A stretch of 64,000 nt of DNA, taken from the NCBI RefSeq assembly GCF_002025255.2, contig NZ_CP054587.1, positions 1,674,001 through 1,738,000 of the forward strand. Reading direction: 5' to 3'. Under the pieces are notes generated by a model. The model worked only from the letters and a program-made list of their open reading frames with translations, did no database searches and was not told the origin of the DNA. Below, piece by piece: positions 33,086 to 35,747 of the stretch. Source of the DNA: Halolamina sp. CBA1230 (GTDB lineage Archaea; Halobacteriota; Halobacteria; Halobacteriales; Haloferacaceae). Both the position numbers and the translations under genes were made by a program. Position 1 is the stretch's first letter. The number at the start of each line of letters is the position of its first letter.

Positions 33086-34222
33086 TCAGCCGTAGTCTGT
33101 TGTGAGAACGAATCTGCGGAAGATTCGTGTTGAGATCAGCGGTGTCTCTGGGAATGTTTCAGCTGAAGCTAAGACGTTGGCTAACACCCACAGATTGTAC
33201 AAAGACACCGCGAACAGAAAGTAGAACAGTCGCACCGAGAACGTCGGTGATGACGTTCTCGGGAGGAAATCGCCGAGCTGGCGATAGGACGTTTCGATCC
33301 CCCAGCGGCGGCGGAACGCCGCCGCGTACGCGTTCGCTGTCGATGAATCTACGTCTAAGCTCGTCACGAACCAGACGTGCTCGTCTTCGCTTGTGCGGTG
33401 CGGAACCGCAAAGACTGTGACATTTACCGACGCTGTTGGTTTGCGCTTTCGCTGCATCGTGTACTCGTCAGCAACCGTCTCAGCGCCGGCGCTGAGACGG
33501 TCTTTCATTCCACTACTCGGACGCGCACGCACGATGTAATCGACATCCTGCTGTTCTAACTCTGCGACGACGTGGACTTGGTAGAATCCACGGTCGAGGT
33601 AGACGTGTCGAATGGAGACGTACTGTTTGGCTGTTTCGAGCAAGGAGCGAACGGCTTCGCGCTTGGCGCGAAAGCCGTTCCCGTCCATCGGGACTACCGC
33701 AAGCGTAAATCGCGTGCGAGGAGCGACGATACACAGTGTTGCGAAGCAAAACGCTTTGTTCGTTCCGAGATCTGGATACGTGGTTAGGACGTGGTCTGTG
33801 TCGGCAGACCCGTAGAAGCGCCACTCGTGGAGATCGATGGCAACATCGACGAACGCAGGAAGTCGGCGCTGAGACCGGAGGACTTCGAACACTCGCTCTC
33901 GGACGCCATCGAACTGGTCAGTGACGGCGTCTGTAGAGAGATTGCGCAAGTGATACAGCAGCGATTTAGCGAGTGAATTTCGAGCCGTAGCGGTGATATC
34001 GACGTGCTCGTCACGATCAAGTTGGAGCGTCTTCCCACCCGTATTTGCGAACTCCTGATCAAAAGCAATCCGAGAGAGGATTTCTTGGAAATCCTCTCTC
34101 GTGTACTTCCCACACGGTTTCACGCCGAATTCGAGTTCTGGAAACAGCACCGTCGACGCAGCACGGCAAACCTGTTTCGCCTCAGCTGTCTGGATCATCT
34201 GTTGACCAACACAGCCTAGCAT
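33086..34222 (-). CDS. ISH3-family DDE transposase
   Basis: A transposase of about 378 residues with the IS4-superfamily pattern: a first Asp in VAIDLHEW (about 128), a second in HVYLDRGFY (about 207) and RRWGIETSYRQLGDF (about 328), where Glu is the third catalytic residue. ATG 34222 is used; ATG 34198 (MIQTAEAK) is also plausible. The frame is intact with no internal stops, so the element may still be active. Confidence 0.85.
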   Translation of the reverse strand: MLGCVGQQMIQTAEAKQVCRAASTVLFPELEFGVKPCGKYTREDFQEILSRIAFDQEFANTGGKTLQLDRDEHVDITATARNSLAKSLLYHLRNLSTDAVTDQFDGVRERVFEVLRSQRRLPAFVDVAIDLHEWRFYGSADTDHVLTTYPDLGTNKAFCFATLCIVAPRTRFTLAVVPMDGNGFRAKREAVRSLLETAKQYVSIRHVYLDRGFYQVHVVAELEQQDVDYIVRARPSSGMKDRLSAGAETVADEYTMQRKRKPTASVNVTVFAVPHRTSEDEHVWFVTSLDVDSSTANAYAAAFRRRWGIETSYRQLGDFLPRTSSPTFSVRLFYFLFAVSLYNLWVLANVLASAETFPETPLISTRIFRRFVLTTDYG

Positions 34223-34282
34223 CAAGAGCCTCAGTCAGGTTCGGCAACTACTGTGAAGGGCGGGGCTTTCTCCTTGATTTCT

Positions 34283-34836
34283 GGCTCTGTTGAAATCCTC
34301 AACCCGTGACAGATTTGGAGGTGATCAGTAAGTACAGAGAACGTCAACACCAGCGGTTATCCTCCGATAATAAATCCGAGACCGAGGAACGGGGCAGCGA
34401 CGCCGCACAGCAATACGAGAACCGCCGTGAAACGGAGTACGCCTACCGCCTGTAGCTGGGTCTCTGGGAGGGACTCGGCGATTCCCGACAGCGCAGTTCC
34501 GACGATCATAAATAGTAACCATCGGGTTTCGCCAGCGTCGCCGACACTCCAGACATACACGAACATACACAAGAAGGTAAGCGACAGGCCGAGCTGGAAA
34601 AGTCCGATTCGACGGCCTTGTGGCTCGTTGAACAGCACTTCGCTGATATAGGGGACCATGAGCGACGTATTTCTGCTTGAGATACAAAATAATGCCTCAG
34701 TGCGTCCCAGCAGAAAGTCCCCTCCCGTGATACGCGATTCCTCTGTAAGGGGGGATGAATACTACGAGATGCGCAACCCCACTTACCGGTTGTTTCACCG
34801 GAGATAGTATTTGCCCAATAAGATTTCAACAGAGCC
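34283..34836. mobile_element. 554-bp short transposable element with cargo membrane gene
   Basis: The 15-base inverted ends GGCTCTGTTGAAATC (34283-34297 and, inverted, 34822-34836) are flanked by a perfect 8-base direct repeat TGATTTCT at 34275-34282 and 34837-34844. Ends of this type together with 8-base duplications are known for IS5-family (ISH1-like) elements of haloarchaea. There is no transposase inside; the only clear gene is the 100-residue membrane protein at 34357-34659. It is a MITE-like, non-autonomous element that was mobilised in trans. Confidence 0.85.
34357..34659 (-). CDS. Small membrane protein carried by the short element
   Basis: A 100-residue protein with three membrane segments (about 18-36, 44-60, 72-98) and starting MVPYISEVLFNEPQGRRIG. 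The hydrophobic pattern and codon use look like a real gene. It lies wholly between the inverted repeats of the 554-bp element, so it travels with it. No family is recognised. A vestigial gene captured during element formation is the alternative. Confidence 0.6.
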   Translation of the reverse strand: MVPYISEVLFNEPQGRRIGLFQLGLSLTFLCMFVYVWSVGDAGETRWLLFMIVGTALSGIAESLPETQLQAVGVLRFTAVLVLLCGVAAPFLGLGFIIGG

Positions 34837-34852
34837 TGATTTCTGTAAACCA

Positions 34853-34907
34853 CAATATCCCAACGCCGGTCGGGAATCCTCGCCCGTCAGGGTGGGGAGG
34901 ATGTCAA
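34853..34907 (+). mobile_element. Solo IS200/IS605 right end
   Basis: AATATCCCAAC, CGGGAATCC, an imperfect hairpin (CTCGCCC-gtca-GGGTGGGG) and the end GAGGATGTCAA repeat, in order, the last 60 bases of the element at 42035-43490. No transposase is attached. It ends in TCAA at 34904-34907 inside the convergent PIN gene, providing that gene's stop codon. Confidence 0.7.
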
Positions 34908-35290
34908 CCGTCGGTGTCCGGTTCCAACGGAAGACGTTCTGCATCGACGTCCTCGTACGCGTTGTCCGAGCCCAAGATTGGATGCCCGCGCGTCTCGGCG
35001 GTGGCCGCGTGGAAGGAGTCGAACGCGGTCATCCCCTCTTCGAAGTAGTTCACCGCTTTGAGCACGATCTGCTTCTCTTCCTCAGTCTCAACGGGAACGA
35101 TGTCAAGCATATTTGAGAACAACGTGATGTAATCGAACTCGTGTCGCTCTCGGATGAGTAGCACCTCCAGATACGCGTACGAGGACGTCACGACGTCGTG
35201 TTCTTCGAGGAGGTTCTCCGCGCGGTCTTTGAGCCAGTCGGAGTCTTTGGCGAGAGCGAGAAGAAAATCGGTTTCAACGTATGCGGTCAT
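34904..35290 (-). CDS. PIN-domain toxin (VapC type)
   Basis: A 128-residue PIN ribonuclease. The acidic residues appear in MTAYVETDFLLAL (first Asp at residue 8), SYAYLEVLL (Glu about 42), MTAFDSFHAATA (Asp about 91) and PILGSDNAYED (Asp about 110). It follows the AbrB-type antitoxin with a 4-base overlap. The stop TGA lies within the end of a solo IS200/IS605 right end, so a few native residues after LPLEPDTDG may be missing; the catalytic core is complete. Confidence 0.82.
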   Translation of the reverse strand: MTAYVETDFLLALAKDSDWLKDRAENLLEEHDVVTSSYAYLEVLLIRERHEFDYITLFSNMLDIVPVETEEEKQIVLKAVNYFEEGMTAFDSFHAATAETRGHPILGSDNAYEDVDAERLPLEPDTDG

Positions 35291-35562
35291 TCGTCCCCAC
35301 CCTCTGCGGGGTGTTTGCCTCGTTCAAACCCTGCTTCGGCGTCCTCTTTCGCCTGCTCTCGTGCCCCCTCGCGGAGCTCTTCAATAGACTTCCCCTCGAA
35401 CGCATCGCCAGCGGCTTCACGAACGGCTTTGAGTGGGTCCTCGTCGATGGGGATGAGTTCGAGCCGATCCTCGTATTCGACGACGTGGAACTTCTCGCCG
35501 TACTTTTTCCTCAGCTCCGAGGACAGGTATAGCCGCCCGTGCGAATCTGTTTCGACTGACAT
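35287..35562 (-). CDS. AbrB/SpoVT-type antitoxin (VapB type)
   Basis: A 91-residue antitoxin. The swapped-hairpin DNA-binding fold is at the start (MSVETDSHGRLYLSSELRKKYG...FHVVEYEDRLELIPI), followed by an acidic helical tail that would bind the PIN toxin. Start 35562 puts the fold at the amino end, as usual. The stop overlaps the toxin start (ATGA). Confidence 0.85.
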   Translation of the reverse strand: MSVETDSHGRLYLSSELRKKYGEKFHVVEYEDRLELIPIDEDPLKAVREAAGDAFEGKSIEELREGAREQAKEDAEAGFERGKHPAEGGDE

Positions 35563-35747
35563 AGGAGTGCGTTTGTATGGGATGAACAAAGAAGTTTCCC
35601 AAAATTCGATTATCTATCCCATACACCAGCGAGGCAGACAGCCCGGTCGCGTCGCTCAACGTTCGACCACGCATAGAAAAAGGATCCGTATAGGTTCATG
35701 AGGTGCTCCTACTGCTAATCAGAAATTTCAAATTCATTATTGACCCC

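Follow-up and report, generated by a model that had tools for sequence, protein, structure and literature searches.

A 554-bp gene-bearing element with IS5-family ends in Halolamina sp. CBA1230, a probable mobile insertion cassette of haloarchaea

Introduction

The mobile insertion cassette (MIC) MIC231 reportedly carries a passenger gene and is moved in trans. MICs depend on a transposase supplied from elsewhere (PMC3129680, PMC6542083), and insertion sequences (ISs) with passenger genes, or transporter ISs, have also been described (PMC3129680). IS231 elements are described in which extra DNA and passenger genes separate the transposase from the left end, a modular arrangement which, as stated in 2008, other families had so far not shown (PMC2266710). 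In the haloarchaea Halobacterium and Haloquadratum, the element ISH2 is described as being about 520-531 bp long, containing an ORF but no transposase and being moved in trans by ISH8 (PMC3119063, PMC10264941); one of these reports names it as the sole MITE with a likely gene in the species studied (PMC3119063). The target-site duplication (TSD) of ISH1 is given as 8 bp (PMC10264941). One transposon of Halorubrum lacusprofundi carries a passenger gene that has been put forward as a candidate for virus exclusion (PMC10544981).

The window, by which we mean the whole analysed stretch of 64,000 nucleotides from the archaeon Halolamina sp. CBA1230, contains a 554-bp element which a sequence-only reading had singled out as a minimal cargo element that an IS5-type transposase would move in trans. 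The structural part of that proposal was borne out, and movement in trans is what this structure suggests. We consider the unit to be very probably a non-autonomous gene-bearing transposon, i.e. a MIC with IS5-family ends. This view is built on its ends and TSDs, on helper elements in the same genome, on relatives of its cargo elsewhere and on the empty sites of two sister elements, all of which were read from sequence.

Results

The element occupies positions 34283-34836 and is flanked by perfect 8-bp TSDs, TGATTTCT at 34275-34282 on the left and TGATTTCT at 34837-34844 on the right, exactly as had been claimed. Its left inverted repeat GGCTCTGTTGAAATC (34283-34297, plus strand) agrees at 15/15 positions with the right repeat GATTTCAACAGAGCC (34822-34836, minus strand), which is its exact reverse complement. 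The left end is of the kind called B here (first 48 bp, 34283-34330, plus strand) and has a second block, GACAGATTT, matching at 6/9 positions and located at element position 26; the inner border of this end was placed at element position 49, where the block common to the cargo-gene copies of genomes G094 and G080 starts. The right end is of the A kind (last 91 bp, 34746-34836, minus strand); TGAAACAACC at 34788-34797 is its inner inverted copy, and its second block is weak (5/9 at position 29). Between the ends lies a gene of 100 aa on the minus strand (34357-34659, stop included), which a low-confidence model predicts to form three long helices, as in a membrane protein. The further ORFs of at least 60 aa overlap this ORF or span the ends of the element and were discounted as genes, so that the conserved ORF is indeed the sole content. 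A tblastn search with the transposases of the two helper elements described below found no helper-type transposase inside the element, again as proposed. A TATA-like stretch, which may serve as a promoter, is located 22-35 nt upstream of the ATG (34681-34694, minus strand), and the element looks as if it carried a whole transcription unit consisting of this stretch and the membrane-protein gene.

The inverted ends and duplications are not a product of chance. With up to 3 mismatches, the 16-base end has 14 forward and 22 reverse matches in the own genome, compared with 2 and 7 for the reversed control, and the TSD-flanked end pairs found in the survey described below stand against 0.04 expected. 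Two features of the window copy speak against its being a cassette: the whole unit is present in one copy in the own 3.47-Mb genome, and its A end is divergent, with the second block off position, and falls outside the strict A-end pattern. The full-length unit is absent from all other genomes among the 197 searched (own included). Uniqueness to this locus, named beforehand as an argument against the proposal, applies in these genomes to the exact 554-bp sequence, which is one of many gene-bearing elements with such ends.

A complete-looking DDE transposase gene (PF01609) is located to the left of the element at 33086-34225; its product has no detectable similarity to that of the helpers, and the DNA to the right of it recurs in another genome (G073:C7). 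Adjoining the element on the other side, at 34904-35589, are genes for a PIN-domain protein (PF01850, above the cut-off) and a small protein with a sub-threshold MraZ match, which are likely to form a VapBC-type pair.

Two complete elements of 1470 and 1450 bp are present in the same genome. Their ends are identical at 16/16 positions, they are flanked by perfect 8-bp TSDs (AAACCGTC and GAGGATGT, respectively), and the ends of the 554-bp element are identical to theirs at 15/15 positions. They are candidates for the postulated IS5-type helper, and both carry passengers too: each encodes a 273-aa transposase of the IS5 family and a convergent passenger of 146 or 162 aa running from the A end, which looks like a membrane protein in both cases. 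The helper transposases match the model NF033579 with 221.3 and 211.3 bits (cut-off 140; E-values 1.8e-65 and 2e-62) and are of the IS5-type DDE kind that defines the family. The transposase of the 1450-bp element is 92.3% identical to that of the annotated ISHxa2 and 90.8% identical to that of the annotated ISHla2, and the copies of both match GGCTCTGTTGAAATCC exactly at the end next to the transposase. The ISHxa2 copy measures 2490 bp, is flanked by a perfect TSD and includes two more annotated genes; a TSD-flanked partner end was sought for the ISHla2 copy and none was found. Three further end pairs occur in the own genome. A 594-bp element without transposase encodes a 103-aa hydrophobic protein, its TSD having 1 mismatch; a 307-bp element has no ORF above 50 aa and is flanked by a perfect TSD; and a 1043-bp pair lacks a TSD (7 of 8 positions differ) and was left out of the insertion counts.

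Homologs of the 100-aa protein were detected by a six-frame search in 108 of 293 genomes, the own genome included. The 27 homologs that were aligned are 41-96% identical to it, and 11 residues are invariant over the 28 aligned proteins. Codon changes at the third position were in excess in 6 of 7 comparisons; the differences at the three codon positions were, for example, 7, 9 and 16 against genome G100 and 21, 17 and 40 against G037. The closest copy (96%; contig C16 of genome G247) differs by 2, 2 and 2, i.e. by four amino-acid changes and zero silent ones, and exhibits no such excess. The TATA-like stretch 22-35 nt ahead of the ATG is alike in all 10 sequences compared. Because of the aligned homologs, the third-position excess and the common TATA-like stretch, the ORF behaves as a gene and is to all appearances a real one. 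At the limits used, its product matched nothing in Pfam, NCBIfam or PADLOC. The AlphaFold2 model showed three long helices with a mean pLDDT of 62, i.e. with low confidence, and hence the helix layout alone was used and the fold was left out. A PADLOC analysis of 10 proteins (the window cargo, 3 other cargoes of the own genome and 6 from the survey) gave weak matches for three of the others. As a guess of low confidence, the protein might be a conditionally useful envelope protein. Relatives of the gene in plasmid records are entered as 'hypothetical protein' in 10 of 11 cases and fall under no listed gene in 1 of 11.

Relatives of the cargo gene are located between such ends at three other sites, in elements of 663, 706 and 2026 bp (84-86% identity). 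The G100 element (663 bp) has the TSD ACTCAGGA and a cargo identical at 86%, and the G041 element (706 bp) has a TSD with 2 mismatches and a cargo identical at 84%. The 2026-bp element (cargo 86%) is flanked by AAATTCTC in genomes G247 and G205 and by a TSD with 1 mismatch in G234, and also contains a gene for a type 2 isopentenyl-diphosphate isomerase (TIGR02151, 401 bits, cut-off 281). The G094 copy is 3439 bp long and includes a 437-aa ORF that by eye encodes a transposase. Since the flanks in G247, G205, G234 and G094 are alike at 98-100%, these copies represent one insertion. The possibility that one end was lost in the G094, G234, G205 and G247:C7 copies was considered and rejected, as the wider DNA contains both ends, 2026 or 3439 bp apart. 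At loci L053, L055 and L066 (genomes G089, G042 and G220), an element of 457-471 bp with related ends and a TSD with 1 mismatch directly adjoins a relative of the window gene.

The expectation that the membrane gene would always lie between the ends, at different sites, was confirmed at these three sites and failed elsewhere. No recognisable ends were found within the loci searched around the copies in G080 (84%), G037, G189, G199 and G283, which counts against the cassette reading, and the G247:C16 copy retains one end and reads through in frame into another coding sequence. The occurrence of the gene without the ends in a syntenic position, named beforehand as an argument against the proposal, was thus encountered in part, as copies without recognisable ends. 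The block that G080 has in common with the window begins at AGTACAG, which resembles the inner part of B ends, and the G080 copy may therefore be a decayed element.

Empty sites were found for two sister elements. The joined flanks of the 2026-bp element match at 300/300 positions in genome G243 and at 298/300 in G134, which belongs to another family, and the empty site contains one copy of AAATTCTC. Those of the 594-bp cassette run end to end in all 6 of the other genomes of the same genus (73-85% identity over 289-333 bases) with no element-sized insert; the 8 bp are not conserved in the five sites displayed, so that this insertion can be placed only approximately. A search of 147 genomes with the joined flanks of the window copy (106 nt) found no empty site, the best match across the junction covering 45 of 106 positions at 89%, and no empty site of the G100 copy was found in 60 genomes; both results speak against the cassette reading. 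The right flank of the window copy is a repeated 3' end, presumably that of a TnpB/IS1341-type element, and the left flank is part of other repeated DNA. Because repeated DNA lies on both sides, the missing empty site of the window copy tells little.

The GTDB genome collection was scanned with a strict A-end pattern, which occurred in at least 119 stretches; judging by their titles, all of those listed come from halophilic archaea. There were 119 distinct A ends in the stretches listed, together with 98 candidates for partner ends. From the 119 listed A ends, 35 end pairs with matching 8-bp TSDs were obtained, 26 of them perfect, and shifted flanks gave 2 matches in 4812, which corresponds to 0.04 pairs expected by chance. 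The pairs represent 34 elements, the one at locus L161 with its two strict A ends appearing twice and being counted once; L146 was left out owing to 4 mismatches in an end (limit 3), and the elements at L003, L015, L022, L033 and L036 were outside the survey and not counted. The 34 TSD-flanked elements among the matches listed mean that the window element is not a lone oddity. Of the 119 listed ends, 78 had room of 1.8 kb or more; 27 of these were paired and 51 had no TSD-flanked partner, which weighs against the cassette reading. The strict A end was present in 42 of 197 relative genomes, spread over 20 of 63 genera, and its reversed control in none; as the window's own A end falls outside the pattern, 42 of 197 is a lower bound. 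Viral contigs contained no strict A-end pattern, and the window element was not found in phage records.

A helper-type transposase was found in 8 of the survey elements and was lacking in 26 (among the matches listed). An ORF of at least 80 aa was present in 22 of these 26, which taken alone is no proof of a gene. We picked 35 cargo ORFs by hand, six of which were alternative frames or neighbouring ORFs, and scanned 28 against Pfam, the first 20 having been chosen partly for their familiar look; among the matches listed, 11 of the 28 exceeded the cut-off and 17 remained below it. In the listed elements without transposase, cargo above the cut-off comprised HicA with an adjacent DUF7387, Pyridox_ox_2, an SCO4226-like protein, the SBF symporter family, PBP_like_2, Hypoth_Ymh and DUF5518; beside a transposase it comprised a TehB-type methyltransferase, RibD_C and DUF7344. 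Comparison of 42 candidate ORFs among the matches listed gave two related pairs only, the passengers of the own 1450-bp IS and of a 1517-bp transposase-less element in genome G077 (85% identity) and two DUF7344-like proteins (35%).

Membrane-like proteins are encoded in both own helpers, in the 594-bp cassette and in several survey elements, as would be expected if the membrane gene were an accessory of the transposition system, such as a regulator or a self-protection factor, and not cargo. The contents of the listed elements are, however, nearly all unrelated and include enzymes, a toxin-like pair and regulators, and copies of the window gene occur away from recognisable ends. An accessory role is therefore very improbable, and we treat the gene as cargo.

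Several further elements were noted. A 689-bp element without transposase in Halalkalirubrum salinum (L134, 3220-3908) has a perfect TSD and 3 mismatches in one end; its HicA gene and DUF7387 partner are likely to be a toxin-antitoxin pair carried as a cassette. The 2171-bp transposase-less element at L110 (G041:C23, 682-2852; TSD ACTATAGT) contains genes for an AstE/AspA-type deacylase (PF24827) and a 77-aa ORF and, by eye, is inserted within another A end of the same kind. The cargo at L127 in Halorubrum salipaludis (2298-2990) has Hypoth_Ymh and DUF2321 domains and a weak PD-Lambda-3_B match, and is possibly a defence gene on a cassette. In Haloterrigena sp. H1 (L161, 3544-5194), a TSD-flanked composite unit of 1651 bp unites an IS5 transposase and a second A end with a stretch that includes a complete internal B end; it could be a snapshot of cargo capture. 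Internal end copies also occur at L163 and L199.

The L161 composite with its complete internal B end would also be compatible with movement by another route, i.e. homologous recombination at repeated ends or plasmid exchange, the TSDs then being relics of old insertions, and so would the fusion of the G247:C16 gene copy to another coding sequence. Against this stand the 35 matching 8-bp flanks, 26 of them perfect, among the matches listed, and the empty site with a single 8-bp copy, all marks of DDE transposition. As recombination alone gives no fresh TSD, this explanation is disfavoured and hardly probable at all, and transposition remains our reading.

Two kinds of ends were distinguished by eye. 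The A end is marked by TGAAACAGCC, an inner inverted copy close to position 40, and this inner block was seen in 3 of the 34 partner ends, the survey elements having been located via their A ends (among the matches listed). The best match to a second block resembling GATATATTC fell exactly on position 26 in 27 of the 34 A ends, in 22 of 26 partner ends of elements without transposase and in 6 of 8 partner ends of transposase-bearing elements; the mean best match was 6.7, 7.6 and 5.5 of 9 positions in these three sets of listed ends, and 5.0, 4.8 and 4.8 after shuffling. As the block was picked post hoc and the ends are related by descent, these numbers are a description and no test. The B ends of the listed elements without transposase have a common sequence type of their own, unlike the transposase-side end of the ISs.

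The last observation bears on the origin of the 554-bp unit as a dead deletion derivative, a fossil left when a passenger-carrying IS lost its transposase in place. The own-genome helpers have the same layout, with the passenger pointing inward from the A end, a near-identical passenger is known with and without a transposase, and the window unit is a single copy, all of which would suit such an origin. A remnant of a helper-type transposase was, however, found neither in the window element nor in the 26 transposase-less elements among the matches listed, the B ends of such elements are of a type foreign to the transposase side of the ISs, and the 2026-bp element, likewise without transposase, is matched at 100% by an empty site in another genome. 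We regard the deletion derivative as improbable and retain the interpretation as a MIC.

Discussion

The 554-bp element has IS-family ends, no transposase and a passenger gene whose role would lie outside transposition, which are the attributes of a MIC, and it would be moved in trans by a related transposase, helpers of this kind being present in the genome. It is not a MITE in the sense of a short, non-coding element with IS ends since it holds a conserved gene, and it differs from transporter ISs in having no transposase, whereas the own 1470- and 1450-bp elements, each with a transposase and an unrelated gene, fit that class. The MICs known from MIC231 and IS231 relatives (IS4 family, Bacillus cereus group) likewise have IS-type ends, lack a transposase and require a related IS. 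The elements analysed here differ in their IS5-family helper, archaeal host, 8-bp TSD, two unlike ends and wider cargo. ISH2 is also haloarchaeal, of similar size and equipped with an ORF but no transposase; it differs in its ISH8-type ends and TSDs of mostly 10 bp. The IS5-family elements ISHxa2 and ISHla2, whose transposases are near that of the own 1450-bp element, carry a transposase, unlike the 554-bp element. In TSD length, 8 bp, the element also agrees with ISH1.

A mechanism may be outlined as follows. A resident IS5-family element of the ISHxa2/ISHla2-like kind, present in two complete copies, would make the DDE transposase, which would bind both ends, A and B, in the helper and in the cassette. 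The element would then be cut out and inserted with an 8-bp stagger, i.e. by cut and paste. New DNA might be picked up by the pairing of ends from neighbouring elements, as the arrangements at L161, L163 and L199 suggest. Expression of the cargo and a benefit from it would complete this scheme.

Across haloarchaea, ends of this kind carry many unrelated genes and so behave as a general vehicle. About as likely as not is a haloarchaeal cassette economy, in which one IS5 end type and a common transposase acting in trans would serve a large pool of single genes and gene pairs with hardly any redundancy. The pool would comprise membrane proteins, lipoproteins, toxin-antitoxin-like pairs, regulators and metabolic enzymes, and cargo would be swapped between end pairs via recombination or the pairing of ends of neighbouring elements. 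Such a system would be an archaeal counterpart of integron cassettes. Integron gene cassettes have a similar effect in that many unrelated single genes travel in a common vehicle, but integrons work through site-specific recombination by an integrase, whereas TSDs and inverted ends mark DDE transposition here.

MICs and transporter ISs are known; what is new is the IS5-type, archaeal variety with very varied cargo. We call it new on the strength of searches of the open literature, in which no paper on IS5-type archaeal gene cassettes was found among the matches listed. It would extend the modular IS231/MIC picture to the IS5 family and to archaea (PMC2266710). Gene-bearing elements without a transposase easily escape IS annotation, as the 'hypothetical protein' entries in the plasmid records illustrate. 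These elements offer a tractable system for studying the spread of single genes in archaea, as they combine a single transposase with defined ends and a large number of natural cargoes. If the pool is as wide as suggested, part of the accessory small genes on haloarchaeal plasmids and chromosomes may move in this way.
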